Of a DNA stretch of 64,000 bases, positions 29,198-42,959 are shown one piece after another. Positions within the stretch are counted from its first letter, which is position 1. Every line of letters starts with the position of its first letter. This DNA is from Novosphingobium sp. (GTDB lineage Bacteria > Pseudomonadota > Alphaproteobacteria > Sphingomonadales > Sphingomonadaceae), in NCBI GenBank assembly GCA_025356575.1, contig JANXSP010000029.1:49471-113470 (forward strand), written 5' to 3'. A program made the translations under genes and the position numbers. The notes under the pieces were generated by a model. It worked only from the letters and a program-made list of their open reading frames with translations, made no database searches and was not told the origin of the DNA.

Positions 29198-31480
29198 GTG
29201 GAGGTTACCCGGCGCGGGCTGCTGATCGGGACCGGGGCGGGCGGGGCGCTTCTCCTCGGCTATGTTCTAAGCCCGCGCGATTACGGCTTGCCGCTGGCCG
29301 CCGGGCGCGGCGAAACGGCTTTCAACGCCTGGATCAAGATCGCGCGCGACGGGGTGGTGACCGTCGCGGTGCCGCAGTGCGAGATGGGCCAGGGCGTGAC
29401 CACGTTGCTCCCGCAAATCGTCGCGCACGAACTGGGCGCGGACTGGCGCCAGATCGCGGTCGAGCCCGCCGCGGCGAGCGGAGCCTATGCCAATACCGCG
29501 CTGGCGGCGAAGTGGTCGGCGCTGTGGATGCCGGCATTCTCCGCGCTCGCCGCCGCGCCCGATGCGCTGCTGGCCCGGCGCTGGGCGCAAAGCGAAGCGT
29601 TCGATGCCACCGCCGACGGGACCACGCTGGCGGCGTACGAAGCCCCGGCCCGCGCTGCTGCTGCCGGCGCCCGCGCGCTGCTGGCGATGGCCGCCGCGGA
29701 CCGTTGGGGGATCGCCTGGGAAGAATGCGAGGCGAAAGAAGGGTTCATCGTCCACGGTGCGCAGCGCCTGCGCTTCGGCGAACTCGCCGCGCGGGCTGCG
29801 CGCTTTACCCCGCCGTCGCCCCCCGTGCTGCTGCCCGCGCCACTTTCCGAAAGCGCGCGCGATGTTGTGGTCGAGGCGCCGCTGCGCTTTCCGCGGCTCG
29901 ATCTCCCCGCCAAGGCCGATGGCAGCGCGCAGTTCGCGGGCGATGTCCGCTTGCCCGGGATGGTTTTCGCCGCGATCCGCCACGCCCCGCTGGGCCGCGC
30001 GCGCCTGACGCATCACGATGCCGCCGCGGCCAAAGCCGTGCCCGGGTTCCTGCAGGCGGTGACCGGCGCGGACTGGCTCGCCGCGACCGCCACCGACGGC
30101 TGGGCCGCCGAGCGGGCGCTGGCGGCGATGGCGCCGCGCTTTCACGCCGAGAACGTCCCCGATAGCGCGCGCATCGCCGCCGCGCTCGACAGCGCGCTCC
30201 ACCGCGGCAGCGCGGTGCGGGTGGCCGCGATCGGCGACCCCGACCCGGTGATCGCGGACAAGCCCGACCTGGCCGTGCGCTACGCGGTTGCCCCCGCGCT
30301 CCATGCCGCGATCGAGACCGCAAGCGCTGCGGCGCGGTTCGCGAACGGCCGGCTCGAACTGTGGCTGGCGAGCCAGGCGCCCGAGGCGGCGCGGCGCGCG
30401 GTGGCCGCCGCGCTCGGGCTCGGGCTGCGCGATGTCGTGCTCTATCCGTGTCTCGCCGGGGGCAGCTTCGACTTGCGCCTCGAGCACCGCCACGCGGTCG
30501 AGGCGGCGCTGATCGCCCGCGCGTTACGCCGCCCGGTGAGCCTGGTCTATTCGCGCTGGCAGGAGCAGTTGACCGCGCTGCCGCGGACCCCGGTGCAGGC
30601 CGTGCTTGCCGCCGCCACGGCAAGGTCGGGCGAGATCGCGGCGTGGCGCGCGCGGCTCGCGCTGCCCGCGACCGCGCGCGAGTTCGGCAAGCGTCTGTTC
30701 GGCGGTGAGGACGCGCAAGCCGCGCTTGGCGCCACCGATCAGGCCGATGCGCTGGCGGTCGAGGGCGCGCTGCCGCCCTACGCCATTGCCCACCGGGCGG
30801 TCGACTATGTCGCTACCGGAATTGCGCTTCCGACCGGGCGCCTGCGCGGAAACGCCCACGGCTACACCGCGTTCTTCACCGAGAGTTTCGTCGACGAACT
30901 GGCCCACCGCGCCAAGCGTGAGCCGCTGTCGTACCGCATGGAAATGCTCGGCTCCGACTTGCGCCTGGCCCAGTGCCTCCAGCGCGCCGCCGCGCTCGGC
31001 GAATGGGACGGCGGCGGCGGGGGGAGCGGGCAGGGGATCGCCTGCCACGCGATGGGCGGCATAGACGCGGGTCAGTCTAGCGGCGGCGGGCGCATCGCCT
31101 GCGTCGCGGTGGCGCGGCGCGACGCCGGCGGCGTCCGGGTCGACCGGCTGAGCGCGGCGGTCGACATCGGGCGCATCGTCAACCTCGATATCGCGCGCCA
31201 GCAGATCGAGGGCGGGCTGGTGTTCGGGCTCGGGCTCGCGCTCGGCGCGGCGACGCGCTATCGCCGGGGCGAGCCGGTGACCGCGCGGCTCGGCGCGATG
31301 AGCCTGCCGCGGCTCGCCGATTGCCCGCGGATCGAGGTCGAGTTCATCGAGAGCGGGGGCGATCCGTTCGATCCGGGCGAACTTGGGGTGGCGGTGGTCG
31401 CTCCGGCAGTGGCCAACGCGCTGTTTTCGGCAACGGGCTTGCGCTTTCGCAGCCTGCCCTTCAACGCGCTGGCGACATGA
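29198..31480 (+). CDS. Xanthine dehydrogenase-family molybdopterin subunit, Tat-exported (GTG start)
   Basis: A 760-residue molybdopterin-binding large subunit of the isoquinoline 1-oxidoreductase beta / aldehyde dehydrogenase type. The N-terminus VTRRGLLIGTGAGGALLLGY is a twin-arginine signal. Cofactor-loop motifs include VPQCEMGQGVTTLLPQ, ANTALAAKW, RGNAHGYTAFFTESFVDELAH and the C-terminal VDIGRIVNLDIARQQIEGGLVFGLG with the catalytic Glu (ELGVAVVAPAVANALF region). The start is GTG three bases after mrp. Normally such enzymes have an adjacent small 2Fe-2S subunit and often a c-type cytochrome; neither is here. Substrate unknown. Confidence 0.85.
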   Translation: MEVTRRGLLIGTGAGGALLLGYVLSPRDYGLPLAAGRGETAFNAWIKIARDGVVTVAVPQCEMGQGVTTLLPQIVAHELGADWRQIAVEPAAASGAYANTALAAKWSALWMPAFSALAAAPDALLARRWAQSEAFDATADGTTLAAYEAPARAAAAGARALLAMAAADRWGIAWEECEAKEGFIVHGAQRLRFGELAARAARFTPPSPPVLLPAPLSESARDVVVEAPLRFPRLDLPAKADGSAQFAGDVRLPGMVFAAIRHAPLGRARLTHHDAAAAKAVPGFLQAVTGADWLAATATDGWAAERALAAMAPRFHAENVPDSARIAAALDSALHRGSAVRVAAIGDPDPVIADKPDLAVRYAVAPALHAAIETASAAARFANGRLELWLASQAPEAARRAVAAALGLGLRDVVLYPCLAGGSFDLRLEHRHAVEAALIARALRRPVSLVYSRWQEQLTALPRTPVQAVLAAATARSGEIAAWRARLALPATAREFGKRLFGGEDAQAALGATDQADALAVEGALPPYAIAHRAVDYVATGIALPTGRLRGNAHGYTAFFTESFVDELAHRAKREPLSYRMEMLGSDLRLAQCLQRAAALGEWDGGGGGSGQGIACHAMGGIDAGQSSGGGRIACVAVARRDAGGVRVDRLSAAVDIGRIVNLDIARQQIEGGLVFGLGLALGAATRYRRGEPVTARLGAMSLPRLADCPRIEVEFIESGGDPFDPGELGVAVVAPAVANALFSATGLRFRSLPFNALAT

Positions 31481-37596: not shown

Positions 37597-37902
37597 CGCA
37601 GTAGCGCCGGCCGGTGTTTGCGAACCTGGCGGTTGGCTTGCGGTGAGGGATCAAGGGACACCGCGCGCTCCGTAAAAGTTAGCGATAGCAATAGCCTGGC
37701 CATTTAATCCAACGGCCAAGACTCCATCGAAATACGGGGAATGACAATCTAAAAACACCGTAATGTCGTGCCCGGCGCGGTCGGGCCGCGGACTTGGCAC
37801 GCGCGCCAAACGCTCGTGCCGATCGCCTCGGAAAAATTTGTCTGGACAACTTTTTTACCTAAACGTAGTCTTCCCGCGATTTCTTTTTCCTGGGGGGGAA
37901 CC
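37597..37902 (+). promoter_or_regulatory. Intergenic region upstream of the TonB receptor
   Basis: About 306 bases between tRNA-Lys and the TonB receptor start. It is less GC-rich than the flanking genes, with A/T runs near 37680-37760 and 37830-37890, as expected for a promoter and leader. It contains the inverted repeat at 37838-37849 and ends in a GGGGGGG ribosome-binding site. No sigma-70 boxes could be assigned with confidence, and no small gene is evident. Confidence 0.5.
37838..37849. promoter_or_regulatory. Inverted repeat TTGTC-TG-GACAA, possible operator
   Basis: Two perfect 5-bp arms around a 2-base centre, flanked by A-rich and T-rich runs, 54 bases before the TonB receptor start codon. 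Size and placement suit a dimeric repressor (for example GntR or LacI type). No regulator gene is adjacent, so the protein is unknown and the site is a prediction. Confidence 0.35.
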
Positions 37903-40329
37903 ATGACAATCCGCACAAAGACCTTTTTGCTCGTTGCTTCGGCGGCCTCGGCAATCCCGGGCGTGGCCGCGGCACAGACCGCGCCGGTCACGCAGACTTC
38001 GGCAACGCCGGGCGCAGCCGCGCTTGACCAGGCAACCGGAGGCGACATCATCGTCACCGCGCGCAAGAAGGAAGAGCGGCTGGTCGATGTACCGCTGACC
38101 ATCGCGGTGGTCGGCGCCGAAGCGATCGACCGTGCGAACCTCGACAATATTTCGGGCATCGCCAACCAGACCCCCGGGTTCTCGTTCAAGCAGGGCTTTG
38201 GACGGACCGGCGGCGGCGGCGGAGCCGGGGTGCGGCCCTCGGTCCGCGGGATGTCATCGGTGGTCGGCGCCCCCAACGCGGCGTTTTTCATCGACGGCGT
38301 GTTCGTCTCGGACAACATCTCGAGCTACCAGCTCGATAACATCGAGCGGGTCGAGGTCATCAAGGGCCCGCAGTCCGCGCTGTTCGGACGCGGCACCTTC
38401 GCCGGCGCGATCAACTTCGTCACGCGCAAGCCGACCAACGATCTCACCGGCCGGATCAAGCTGACCATCGGAGAATTCGATAACCAGGAAGTATCGGGGT
38501 ACATTTCGGGCCCGATCGTCAAGGACGTGCTGCTGTTCGAAGTCAACGCGCGCAGCTACAATTTCGGCGGCGACTATGTGAACGCGGCCACGGGCGTGCG
38601 CGACATCGGCGGGCAGAACAGCATCAATCTCGGCGGACGCCTGCTGTTTCGGCCGAGCCACAACTTCGAGGCCATCGCCTCGTTCGGGTTCAGCCAGGAC
38701 CGGGACACCGCCTATGCCTATAACCCGCAAGGATCGCTGCAGAACAACTGCTATGCGCCGCCGATCATTGCGACGGTGCCGTTCCCCAAGACCAACACCA
38801 GCCGGCGCGGGTTCTACTGCGGCGAGGTCAAGACGCTGGCGTCGTACTTTGCCAACAACACCGCGCTGGCGACGCTCGGTTACCACGGGCTCGACCGCAA
38901 ATTCTACCGCGCCAATCTGGCGATGGCCTATACCACCGATGGCGGGACGACGCTTTCTTCGAACACCGCGTTCAACCACAACTACAGCATCACCGGGCAG
39001 GATAACGCCACGCTGGTGACCGCCGCGCCCTCGTTCGCGATCGACGGTTCCACGGTCGAGGATTTCAGCCAGGAAATCCGCCTCGCTAGCCCGCAGAACA
39101 AGCCGATCCGCGCCACCGTGGGCGCGTACCTGTACATCGAGGATGTCCTGCCGGGGTTCGAGGTCAACGCCGCGACGAACACCCGCCGGCCTTACGACAG
39201 CCCCAACGGGGTGCGTAGCAAGTCGGTCTTCGGGATGATCGAGGCGGATATTTCCTCGCGCTTCACGGTCAGCGGCGAAGCACGCGCGCAATCCGACCGG
39301 ATCATCGGATCGACCCGGGTGCTGGGGCCGGTTGGCGGCCCGCCCGCGCCGGCGATCAACGTCAAGGAGGTCAAGTTCAACGCGTTTTTGCCGCGGTTCA
39401 CCGCGCGGTACAAGCTGGCCGACGATCTCAACATCTATGCGACCGCGGCCAAGGGCAACAAGCCGGGCGGGTTCAACAACTTCCCGACCGACGCCAGCGC
39501 TGCGGATATCGCCACGTTCACCGCATCGGGTTTCGCGACGTTCCAGGAAGAAAGCGCGTGGAGCTATGAACTCGGCTTCAAGGGCCGGAGCCGCGGCATC
39601 AACTTCGCTTTCGCGGCATTCTATACCGACTGGAAGCATCAACAGCTCAGCCGAGGCGAGGCTTACACTCGCCTGACCGGGACCCCCAACAGCGTGGTGT
39701 TCATCCAGAACGCCGGCCAATCGCGGATCAAGGGATTTGAATTCGACATTTCGGGCAAGCCGGCAAACTGGCTGTATCTGCGCCTAGCCTACACCTATGT
39801 CGACGCCCGGTTTACGCGCTTTTTCGACGATACAACCGAGGAAATCTTCGACACCGACGGTCGCTCGGCCTTCCTCAGCAACGATCAGCCCAACCCGCTC
39901 GATGTCGACGGGCCCGGCGGGGGCGACGTCAGCGGCAACCGCCTGCCCCAAACCCCCGAGCATCAGGCGATCTTCACCGCCGAGATCAACCAGCCGCTTT
40001 CGGGCAATCTGGAATTCCTCGCGCGCGGCGATCTGGCATACGAATCCCGGCGGTATAGCCAGGTGGACAATCTCAATTGGGCGGGCGCGAGTTACAACCT
40101 CAACGCCAGCGTCGGGGTCCACGACGATCACTGGTCGATCAGCGTCTTCGCGCGCAACCTGCTGCAAGACCGGACGCCGCTGGTCGTGACCCGGATCCTC
40201 GATTTCAACCGGCTGCTGACGCGGGTCAATCCGCTGACCGGTCTCAACCAGACGACGTTCTTCCGCGATTTCTTCGTTTCGGCCCCGCGTCGACGTCAGT
40301 TCGGCGTCAATCTCGCATACAAGTACTAG
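37903..40329 (+). CDS. TonB-dependent outer-membrane receptor
   Basis: An 808-residue TonB-dependent receptor. The signal peptide (MTIRTKTFLLVASAASAIPGVAAAQ) precedes a TonB box region (DIIVTARKKEE), the plug domain (VPLTIAVVGAEAIDRANLDNI, then IERVEVIKGPQSALFGRGTFAGAINFVTRKP) and a 22-strand barrel ending FGVNLAYKY with terminal aromatic residue. The plug has an unusual Gly-rich loop (GGGGGAGVRP). The start is after GGGGGGG and 45 residues inside the ORF. Followed by two PepSY-type membrane proteins, which suggests ferric-siderophore or other metal-complex uptake with periplasmic reduction. Confidence 0.94.
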   Translation: MTIRTKTFLLVASAASAIPGVAAAQTAPVTQTSATPGAAALDQATGGDIIVTARKKEERLVDVPLTIAVVGAEAIDRANLDNISGIANQTPGFSFKQGFGRTGGGGGAGVRPSVRGMSSVVGAPNAAFFIDGVFVSDNISSYQLDNIERVEVIKGPQSALFGRGTFAGAINFVTRKPTNDLTGRIKLTIGEFDNQEVSGYISGPIVKDVLLFEVNARSYNFGGDYVNAATGVRDIGGQNSINLGGRLLFRPSHNFEAIASFGFSQDRDTAYAYNPQGSLQNNCYAPPIIATVPFPKTNTSRRGFYCGEVKTLASYFANNTALATLGYHGLDRKFYRANLAMAYTTDGGTTLSSNTAFNHNYSITGQDNATLVTAAPSFAIDGSTVEDFSQEIRLASPQNKPIRATVGAYLYIEDVLPGFEVNAATNTRRPYDSPNGVRSKSVFGMIEADISSRFTVSGEARAQSDRIIGSTRVLGPVGGPPAPAINVKEVKFNAFLPRFTARYKLADDLNIYATAAKGNKPGGFNNFPTDASAADIATFTASGFATFQEESAWSYELGFKGRSRGINFAFAAFYTDWKHQQLSRGEAYTRLTGTPNSVVFIQNAGQSRIKGFEFDISGKPANWLYLRLAYTYVDARFTRFFDDTTEEIFDTDGRSAFLSNDQPNPLDVDGPGGGDVSGNRLPQTPEHQAIFTAEINQPLSGNLEFLARGDLAYESRRYSQVDNLNWAGASYNLNASVGVHDDHWSISVFARNLLQDRTPLVVTRILDFNRLLTRVNPLTGLNQTTFFRDFFVSAPRRRQFGVNLAYKY

Positions 40330-40374
40330 GCGGGTGGCGGCCGGATTTCGGAACCGAACGAACGGGAGCGGAGC

Positions 40375-41463
40375 ATGACTGTATCGACCTTGACGCTGCG
40401 CCGCTGGCACCGCCGCTTTGCGCTGGTGCTGGGGCTGTTCTTCATCCTCCAGGGGGTGACCGGCGCTATTGCCCAGCAGCGTTTCTGGTTGATGCAGGCG
40501 ACCAATCCCGGGCTCTACCGCGCCGATGGAGCGGGCCAAGCGGCGCCCCCGGGCGATATCCTCGCCGATATCGCGCGTGAGCGGCCCGGCTTCCAGGTCG
40601 CGCACATGATGTATCCCGCGGCCGTGTCTCCGCGCACCGCGATCGTGGTGATGGGCGGGCGCAATGCGGGCACGCTCGACATGTCGCGGATAGTGATGGT
40701 CAATCAGTTCCAGAACAAGGTCATTACCGAACAGTCGGCTTCGGCGGGTTGGATCGGTCTGGCCTCGGTCCTCCACCGCTGGCTGATCTTCGGCACGCCG
40801 GGCAAGATCATCCTCACCATCCTGGGCGCCGGGGTCGTGATCTTTTCGGCACTCGGCATCGTGATCTGGTTCCGGACGCGCGGCACCAGCCGCAACGCCA
40901 AGGGCGTGGTCAAGTTTCATCGTACCGCCGGGATCGTGGCGGGACTGTTCATCATCTCGGTCGCCGGCACGGGCACCGCGCTCAACCTTTATACCTGGGC
41001 GGAGAAATCCTCCGGCCGCTCGGTGTTCAAGAGCAACATGCAGATGGCGCCGGCGCATGCCGGGATGGCGATGAAGCCCGCGGTCGGTGCCAACGCCGCT
41101 TATGCCACCGCCCAGAAGGCGGTCGGCAATCTCCACATGGTCGCGTTCGGACCAGCCGGGCCACACGCGGTGAACTATTGGTTCGCATTCATGAGCCCGC
41201 AACTGAAGCGCACCGACGTGCTGGTCGATCCACAGACGGGCAAGCTGGTCGGGATTTATCCAACGGGATTGACCAGCGGGGGCGATGGGGTCCGGGCGTG
41301 GCTCTTTCCGGTTCACAGCGGATTTATCATCGGGCCGATCGGCGGGGTGATCTATTCGATCATCGGCATTTCCGTCAGCCTGTGGGTCGCGACCGGCTTC
41401 GTCATGTGGCGGCGCGGACGCCGGCCCAAGCGCAAGACGGCGCCGGTGCTGGCCGCCGCCTAG
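40375..41463 (+). CDS. PepSY-associated transmembrane protein
   Basis: A 362-residue inner-membrane protein with four helices (about residues 14-34, 141-163, 180-203 and 318-345) of the PepSY_TM family. The first helix is preceded by RRWHRRFAL, the second by VLHRW and the third by VKFHRTAG; such His residues can bind haem in related ferric-siderophore reductases. The periplasmic loop contains a PepSY-like segment (VLVDPQTGKLVGIYP). It lies 45 bases after the TonB receptor and overlaps the next start (TAGTG). A role in reductive iron release is inferred from family and context. Confidence 0.85.
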   Translation: MTVSTLTLRRWHRRFALVLGLFFILQGVTGAIAQQRFWLMQATNPGLYRADGAGQAAPPGDILADIARERPGFQVAHMMYPAAVSPRTAIVVMGGRNAGTLDMSRIVMVNQFQNKVITEQSASAGWIGLASVLHRWLIFGTPGKIILTILGAGVVIFSALGIVIWFRTRGTSRNAKGVVKFHRTAGIVAGLFIISVAGTGTALNLYTWAEKSSGRSVFKSNMQMAPAHAGMAMKPAVGANAAYATAQKAVGNLHMVAFGPAGPHAVNYWFAFMSPQLKRTDVLVDPQTGKLVGIYPTGLTSGGDGVRAWLFPVHSGFIIGPIGGVIYSIIGISVSLWVATGFVMWRRGRRPKRKTAPVLAAA

Positions 41464-42959
41464 TGCCGCCGCGCGTCCACCGGTTCCTGCGCGCGGTCCA
41501 CAAGTATGCGGGCCTGACCGCGTGCGCGTGGCTGCTCGTACTGGCGCTGACGGGGATTGCGCTCGATCACCACGAATGGCGCTGGCTGAACCAGAACAGC
41601 GTGCCCGCGGCGTGGACCTCGCCGCAGATCGGACGGCTGGTTCCGGGCACGATCATGCGCCACATCGCGGTGGCGGGCGGAACTGTCGTCGGCGCGTCGG
41701 AACGCGGCACCTGGCGTTCGGCCGATGCGGGCAAGACCTGGACCCCCGTGGCGTTCACCGCGCGATCGGGCCAGCCGCAGGTCTATGGGTTTGCCGAACT
41801 GGACCGCCACGGCTTTGCCGGGTTGTATCTTGCGACCGACGACGGATTGTGGGCAACCGACGCGGGCGGGGGATCGGCCCGGCGCGTGGCGCTGGCGGGC
41901 GTGCGGTTGACCGCGATCAGCCCGGCGGCGGATGCCGCATCGCTGGTCGCGGTTCGCGATTCCAGTGCGCTGGTCCGGATCCTGCCGGCAGCCGGACAAG
42001 CCAACGCGATCGCGCTTGGTTCGGGTGCCGGCCCGGGTGTCACCGGACTTGCCAAGACCCTCCCGTTCGCGCGCTCGCTGATGGACATCCATTTCGGTCA
42101 CGGCATGCTGCCGGGCCGGTGGGCGATCCGGCTCAACGATCTGGGCGGGGTGGGCATGGCGGTGTTGGCGCTGACCGGGGTGGGATACTGGTGGGTGACC
42201 CGGCGCGGGCGCCGCAAGCTGCTCTCGATGCGGGCGCAACGCGGGACGATGCGCTGGCTCCACCGGTTCCACGGGCCGCTGGTCGGGCTGGCGGCGGCAG
42301 TGCCCATTCTCTATCTTTCGCTCACCGCAATCCCGCTCGATCATATCTACGGTTTTCTCGGCTGGGCCGAAGGGCGCACGGTCGCGCGGTCAAGCTTGCC
42401 CCCGGGGTTTCAGGCGTGGTCGCTCGATCACGAGATCGAAGGGGTGGCCGCATGGCCGAACGATCCTGCAGGCCTGATTATCGCAACCCGCTTCGGCCTG
42501 CTCGAAAGCCATGACGGCGGGCGCAACTGGCGCCCCGACGCCAGCCTGCCGGTGCCCGACGGCGACGCGGGGGGCAACGTGTTCCGGGTCGAAGACCAGG
42601 TCTTCGCCGGGTTCGGCCGCGGCGGCAATTTCGTCCGCGGCCCAGGCAACGCAGTGTGGCGCAAGCTGACCGGCCCCAAGACTGCGATCACGGGCGCATC
42701 GCGCGATGGCGGCACCTGGTACGTCAAGAACAGCAAGGCGATCTATCGCACCGGCGCGGCTCCGGATGTCCTGAGCGATACCAGAATCGCGGTGCGCAAT
42801 GCCGCATCGGGAACGCCGCTGTTCCTGATGATGGCCGATCTGCACGCCGGCGTGATGATCCACGACCAATTCAAATGGCTCAACGACGTGTTCGCGGTCC
42901 TGGCTGTGTTGCTGGCGCTGAGCGGACCTTTGATCTGGCTCAAGCGCAAGTGGATCTGA
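41463..42959 (+). CDS. PepSY-type membrane protein with BNR/Ycf48-like periplasmic loops (GTG start)
   Basis: A 498-residue protein starting at GTG overlapping the previous stop (TAGTG). A helix near the N-terminus (TACAWLLVLALTGIALDHH) is followed by a periplasmic loop of about 190 residues with propeller-blade signatures (GTWRSADAGKTWTPV, GLWATDAGGG). Two central helices (MAVLALTGVGYWW and LVGLAAAVPILYLSLTAIPLDH) precede a second such loop (GLLESHDGGRNWRPD, GGTWYVKNSKAIYRT) and a last helix (VFAVLAVLLALSGPLIW). His-rich sites (HRFLRAVHKYAG, RWLHRFHGPL) are placed like haem ligands. This combination is not a family known to me. Confidence 0.8.
   Translation: MPPRVHRFLRAVHKYAGLTACAWLLVLALTGIALDHHEWRWLNQNSVPAAWTSPQIGRLVPGTIMRHIAVAGGTVVGASERGTWRSADAGKTWTPVAFTARSGQPQVYGFAELDRHGFAGLYLATDDGLWATDAGGGSARRVALAGVRLTAISPAADAASLVAVRDSSALVRILPAAGQANAIALGSGAGPGVTGLAKTLPFARSLMDIHFGHGMLPGRWAIRLNDLGGVGMAVLALTGVGYWWVTRRGRRKLLSMRAQRGTMRWLHRFHGPLVGLAAAVPILYLSLTAIPLDHIYGFLGWAEGRTVARSSLPPGFQAWSLDHEIEGVAAWPNDPAGLIIATRFGLLESHDGGRNWRPDASLPVPDGDAGGNVFRVEDQVFAGFGRGGNFVRGPGNAVWRKLTGPKTAITGASRDGGTWYVKNSKAIYRTGAAPDVLSDTRIAVRNAASGTPLFLMMADLHAGVMIHDQFKWLNDVFAVLAVLLALSGPLIWLKRKWI

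Follow-up and report, generated by a model that had tools for sequence, protein, structure and literature searches.

A PepSY_TM-type membrane protein with a predicted split beta-propeller, encoded beside a TonB-dependent receptor in Novosphingobium sp.

A 64,000-nucleotide stretch of Novosphingobium sp. DNA (contig JANXSP010000029.1, positions 49,471 to 113,470; hereafter the window) contains a gene for a TonB-dependent receptor followed by genes for two PepSY_TM proteins, the second of which, 498 residues long, carries in its two periplasmic loops the blades of what is predicted to be one beta-propeller. At roughly even chances, we take this protein to be a transmembrane reductase that holds two haems, is capped by the split propeller, and helps to take up an organic compound or a metal chelate of it. 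More tentatively, it may stand for a distinct family of transmembrane haem reductases, which would have arisen by duplication of a helix/three-blade/helix unit, would carry a propeller in place of the PepSY domains, and would belong to a dedicated catabolic regulon together with TonB receptors and DUF1838 proteins; we consider this broader idea somewhat less likely than not. The gene order and spacing reported in a preliminary description of the locus were confirmed: the receptor stop and the next gene are 45 bases apart, and the stop of that gene overlaps the GTG start of the third gene by one base (TAGTG).

37903-40329, forward strand: TonB-dependent receptor, 808 amino acids (Pfam TonB_dep_Rec_b-barrel, expectation value (E) 2e-32; Plug, E 4e-19)
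40375-41463, forward strand: FoxB-like PepSY_TM protein, 362 amino acids (Pfam PF03929, E 5e-30), an optional partner
41463-42959, forward strand: PepSY_TM protein with a predicted split beta-propeller, 498 amino acids, GTG start (PF03929, E 5e-18; AlphaFold2, Foldseek, and family alignment)

Membrane core and invariant histidines

The 498-residue protein scored 66 bits on PF03929, against a curated cut-off of 28.8, and the PepSY_TM match was found in all seven aligned members of its family. Its AlphaFold2 model contained four transmembrane (TM) helices, three of which also passed a hydropathy cut-off, while TM2 was seen only in the model.

41502-41570, forward strand: TM1 (residues 14-36), bounded by the invariant His13 and by the motif D-H36-x-E-W-(R)-W
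42120-42329, forward strand: TM2-TM3 hairpin, residues 220-289, interrupting the predicted propeller; invariant His210 lies just before TM2 and His270 at the start of TM3
42873-42938, forward strand: TM4 (residues 471-492); the invariant His461 (D-H-x-G) lies ahead of it

Six histidines (His13, His36, His210, His270, His294, and His461) were invariant among 14-15 homologues, some only 31% identical, and they make up three pseudo-symmetric pairs, with His36/His294 located at the boundary between membrane and propeller. In FoxB, such histidines hold two haems, and CrpH requires its periplasm-side pair (PMC13038864); HiuB has been modelled with likewise placed haem-ligand histidines (PMC13001220). 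By analogy, His13/His270 and His210/His461 are predicted to be the ligands of two haems, and the 498-residue protein probably transfers electrons through them. Since all four expected haem-ligand histidines are invariant, a haem-based membrane reductase, as put forward in the preliminary description, is plausible. An alternative is that the protein has lost electron transfer and acts as a substrate sensor or tether, as propellers often do nothing but bind. We find this hardly probable at all, because a tether would not need invariant helix-end histidine pairs, and three of them persist down to 31% identity.

The four-helix PepSY_TM core, the helix-end histidines, and the adjacent TonB receptor gene are shared with FoxB of Pseudomonas aeruginosa (Protein Data Bank (PDB) entry 7abw) and HiuB of Caulobacter. 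The periplasmic parts of these two proteins, however, are PepSY-type domains, whereas Pfam gave no PepSY domain match in the 498-residue protein, both loops of which were modelled as propeller blades instead, half a propeller in each. Furthermore, a profile of seven homologues of the 498-residue protein matched FoxB weakly and in the membrane part only (E 0.008), whereas the 362-residue neighbor is clearly FoxB-like (phmmer against 7abw, E 1.7e-8). The latter has His12, His134, His182, and His314 at helix starts, and its periplasmic loop 2 contains a Met/His-rich stretch.

A beta-propeller divided between two periplasmic loops

The blade signatures of BNR/Ycf48 type that had been noticed in both periplasmic loops are indeed present and conserved in the family.

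41643-42011, forward strand: periplasmic loop 1 (residues 61-183), with about three blades and a BNR signature at 41712-41741
42441-42782, forward strand: periplasmic loop 2 (residues 327-440), with about three blades and a BNR signature at 42504-42530

Each loop holds one canonical Asp-box motif (S/T-x-D-x-G-x-T/x-W), namely TWRSADAGKTW in loop 1 (W84-W93) and ESHDGGRNW in loop 2 (residues 348-356). In loop 1, R81, G82, W84, G90, W93, T125, D126, G128, and W130 were invariant in 15 homologues, and in loop 2 the same was true of R343, G345, G353, and W356 in all 14 homologues that extend that far. The BNR model by itself remained below its threshold on the 498-residue protein (E 5e-4), and the protein as a single-sequence query found no match in the PDB. 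The seven-homologue profile, on the other hand, matched solved BNR propellers with both loops (3b7f, E 2.4e-8; GH74 enzyme 6p2k, E 7e-7), and the NCBIfam propeller model NF045728 matched the protein in two separate stretches (E 5e-10). Membership in the F510_1955 glycosylhydrolase family, which NF045728 describes, was rejected (39 bits against an equivalog cut-off of 175). Judged from sequence, the signatures in both loops exceed chance.

Structure prediction pointed the same way. Most of loop 1 in the AlphaFold2 model of the window protein had a predicted local distance difference test score (pLDDT) of 75-93. In the model of a 43% identical homologue from a Rhodobacteraceae metagenome-assembled genome (m31f958b1b571), both loops lay mostly at about 79-93, and the equivalent of loop 2 mostly at 79-90; since this second run shares most of the alignment of the first, it counts as a replicate and not as a fully independent prediction. 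When compared with the PDB using Foldseek, both models matched propellers. The second model retrieved 561 chains at E up to 0.001 (best, 6p2k, 4.5e-9). Foldseek matches also included a designed seven-bladed propeller (7bie, TMt 0.56) and Ycf48 (5ojr, TMt 0.41). The alignments ran over about 350-450 columns, many of them against targets of about 290-340 residues, a length sufficient to reach across both loops and in keeping with one propeller that has blades on either side of the hairpin. DSSP strands suggested about three blades per loop and about six in total. Both loops therefore likely form, according to the models, a single beta-propeller that is split by the TM2-TM3 hairpin. The split propeller of the preliminary description is supported in this way by both models and by Foldseek, and the loops did not turn out to be bladeless.

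Asp-box motifs and a propeller fold are common to the BNR/Ycf48-type propellers (Ycf48, GH74 xyloglucanases, and the F510_1955 family), but those are contiguous, soluble, and usually seven-bladed, whereas the predicted propeller described here is split by a TM hairpin and has about six blades. The nearest functional parallel is XusABC of Bacteroides, in which the genes for a TonB receptor and a PepSY protein adjoin that of a propeller that binds a ferric siderophore (PMC13142918). TonB transporter, beta-propeller, and PepSY inner-membrane protein are thus combined in one system there as well, but as three separate proteins, XusB being a seven-bladed surface lipoprotein, whereas the propeller considered here is integral to the membrane protein. 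No named family with this layout was found in Pfam, NCBIfam, or the literature searched, in agreement with the preliminary description, and none of the papers searched, among which there were no subscription journals, linked PepSY to BNR repeats or PepSY_TM to propellers.

Internal duplication of the 498-residue protein

When residues 8-247 and 262-498 were compared as profiles with hhalign, they aligned over 210 columns with an E of 1.8e-13 and a probability of 98%, versus an E of 0.31 for the reversed control. With the loops alone the E was 1.4e-5, whereas controls with permuted and reversed columns gave 0.25-0.49. In the alignment of the halves, the beginnings of TM1 and TM3 coincide, with His13 opposite His270; the DH motifs that contain His36 and His294 also coincide, as do His210 and His461 and the BNR signatures of both loops. 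This profile evidence shows homology between the halves, and the duplicated unit looks like a helix, three blades, and a helix. Since the duplication extends over the whole protein, one and the same pseudo-twofold axis would run through the propeller and the helix bundle.

Distribution and gene linkage

The family of the 498-residue protein is rare. Homologues were present in 8 of 401 genomes from the order, in 3 of 385 from the class (full-length matches), and in 2 of 399 from the phylum, and none were found among the plasmids or viral contigs searched. The distribution is patchy even inside one genus, as genome G634 lacks the gene. A TonB receptor gene adjoins the family gene at 12 loci (the window, L001, where the two genes are divergent, L002, L004, L006, L030, L031-L035, and, weakly, L067). 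Over ten receptor-linked loci, the divergence of the receptor was correlated with that of the propeller protein (r 0.87; 4 of 2000 label permutations were as high), a correlation to which common species history also contributes. The FoxB-like partner, on the contrary, was adjacent at only three of the 12 loci (the window, L002, and L030), its only orthologues being those of L002 (86%) and L030 (48%). Because of this, the pair of PepSY proteins beside the receptor, which the preliminary description had taken to form the reductase together, was rejected as a conserved unit. At one of these loci, L002:3380-5301 holds the truncated start of a propeller protein fused to the apparent end of another PepSY_TM protein, followed by a full propeller gene; either the assembly is chimeric here or a tandem locus has recombined.

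A second conserved setting of the family was found at L003, L005, and L007, where the homologue lies directly downstream of a gene for a CobW-type GTPase, with an aldo/keto reductase gene between them in two cases. CobW-type GTPases are a metallochaperone family. Three further homologues had no recognizable partner gene. The CobW genes and the Met/His-rich loop of the 362-residue partner could be taken as signs of copper-chelate handling as in CrtA/CrpH of Bordetella pertussis, in which the receptor would import chelated copper and the PepSY_TM proteins would reduce it for respiratory oxidases; the operon layout, a receptor and then a PepSY_TM protein, is alike (PMC12914433, PMC13038864), and the periplasm-side histidines of CrpH are essential. 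However, the CrtA/CrpH operon is regulated by copper and CrpH has no described propeller, no copper genes were seen at the locus in the window, the Met/His stretch belongs to a partner missing from most loci, and CrtA orthologues have been reported mostly in beta- and gamma-proteobacteria (PMC12914433). A role in copper handling therefore appears very unlikely to us.

A palindrome shared with catabolic genes

Upstream of the receptor gene we found a palindromic operator-like site, which differs by two mismatches from ATTTGTCCGGACAAAT.

37836-37851, no strand assigned: operator-like palindrome ATTTGTCTGGACAACT, located 51-66 bases ahead of the receptor start codon

At L001, palindromes of the ATTTGTCCGGACAAAT type occur in two near-perfect copies between the divergent receptor and propeller genes (L001:7855-7946), and a third lies nearby. 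The genome of the window has 15 sites (up to three mismatches), versus none for the reversed control, and seven of them fall on contig C148 (10290-48171). Genome G882 has eight sites (up to two mismatches), and every one of them falls in C1:2008323-2059110, a stretch that begins 5 kb from the propeller gene (2001895); all are within 57 kb of it. Three genomes of the window's genus that lack the propeller gene had zero or one site. Common to the surroundings of the sites on C148 and in the G882 island are genes for DUF1838, two TonB receptors, a major facilitator superfamily transporter, an FAD-linked oxidase, an HpcH/HpaI lyase, an acyl-CoA dehydrogenase, family III CoA transferases, MmgE/PrpD, aconitase-like, HMGL-like, and polysaccharide-deacetylase-like proteins, and a GntR-domain protein. 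Judging by these neighbors, the genes marked by ATTTGTCCGGACAAAT, which encode TonB receptors, DUF1838 proteins, transporters, and CoA enzymes, resemble a regulon, and a catabolic setting of the locus is probable. A candidate regulator is the GntR-domain protein that the two islands have in common (L049:3-584 and L057:17051-17806); it is not of the FCD type, and an FCD-type GntR regulator was rejected as the palindrome binder, since no FCD protein was found in the window's genome. In genus g373 (L031-L035), another conserved palindrome-like element, TATTGATATATCATA, occurs with near variants about 140-160 bases before the receptor start, which suggests a different regulator there.

The iron/siderophore setting implied by the preliminary description gained no support from regulation. 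According to that reading, the locus would encode a ferric-siderophore reductase of the ordinary kind: a siderophore enters through the receptor, both PepSY proteins free its iron by reduction under Fur control, and the propeller is only a siderophore-binding cap. FoxB, HiuB, and FsrB are described as working in this way (PMC13001220, PMC13038864, PMC10760861), the 362-residue partner is FoxB-like, the closest solved structure to the receptor is FyuA, the pesticin receptor (4epa, E 3e-22), and siderophore-receptor models match the receptor weakly, below their cut-off. Against this, in the promoters of nine receptor genes (that of the window and eight homologous ones), none of four consensus forms gave a Fur-like site clearly above shuffled sequences, though divergent sites could escape such a search, and the palindrome in the receptor promoter is common to catabolic genes. 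On balance, we consider a siderophore reductase rather unlikely.

The DUF1838 genes also connect the propeller genes with the palindrome. Genome G882 and five genomes of g373 have three of them each; in G882 and in at least four of the five g373 genomes, two of the three are no more than a few kb away from the propeller gene; in G689, contig breaks leave only one visible beside it. In the window's genome, a DUF1838 gene is located downstream of a perfect palindrome. The encoded proteins have signal-peptide-like N-termini, and in three genera their genes are grouped with either the propeller reductase or the palindrome (L048:13808-14716, L030:10837-12707, and L031:6941-8757). One might therefore suppose that the propeller is a protein-docking platform and that the haem core exchanges electrons with a periplasmic pathway enzyme, possibly DUF1838 itself. 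Ycf48 propellers bind protein, complexes with the D1 peptide were among the Foldseek matches, and DUF1838 genes adjoin the homologue in G882 and g373. However, DUF1838 has no known activity, and none was seen in the DNA examined at loci such as L002, L004, and L006, so that we regard such docking as unlikely.

Proposed role of the propeller protein

Our preferred reading, a propeller-capped haem reductase that serves uptake, would work as follows. The 498-residue protein would be a transmembrane electron conduit of the PepSY_TM kind, its four helices carrying two b-type haems, one held by His13/His270 near the cytoplasm and the other by His210/His461 near the periplasm. The propeller of about six blades, half from each loop, would cap the periplasmic face in place of PepSY domains, with the third invariant pair, His36/His294, between membrane and propeller. 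Cargo brought into the periplasm by the neighboring TonB receptor would be bound by the propeller and held above the outer haem for reduction. Since the locus bears the operator-like site of a catabolic gene set, the substrate would most likely be an organic compound or its ferric or cupric chelate, and receptor and reductase would together bring in such a compound, perhaps in the form of a metal chelate. In this picture, gene order, domain identity, duplication, invariant histidines, receptor linkage, and the shared palindrome are read from the sequence and the propeller fold is predicted, while haem binding, electron transfer, the function of the palindrome, and the substrate are inferred.

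Several points weigh against this proposal. Confidence in the models is moderate (mean pLDDT 67 and 68.5, with only 6-7 sequences aligned), and their membrane part is the weaker one; the figure of six blades is a count of DSSP strands, and several good Foldseek targets are seven-bladed. Palindrome sites elsewhere do not prove co-regulation. Furthermore, since three homologues adjoin CobW GTPases and three have no partner, the function may differ among members of the family.

If the broader idea of a distinct family within a catabolic regulon is correct, electron transfer by PepSY_TM proteins would reach past metal acquisition. The superfamily, whose characterized members act on iron or copper, would be widened to a catabolic-looking locus. 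The protein also appears to be a case of a beta-propeller built as two halves on a four-helix TM core, with fold and membrane core sharing one internal duplication. The common palindrome and the gene linkage offer a testable entry to DUF1838, a family without known function.

Other genes

A third PepSY_TM match in the genome (G000:C119:13-666) lies near a contig end and covers half of the model. About 6 kb upstream of the locus, at window positions 29198-31474, there is a gene for a molybdopterin-binding oxidase-like protein, and in genus g373 a gene of the same kind adjoins the homologous locus (L032:14167-16443).

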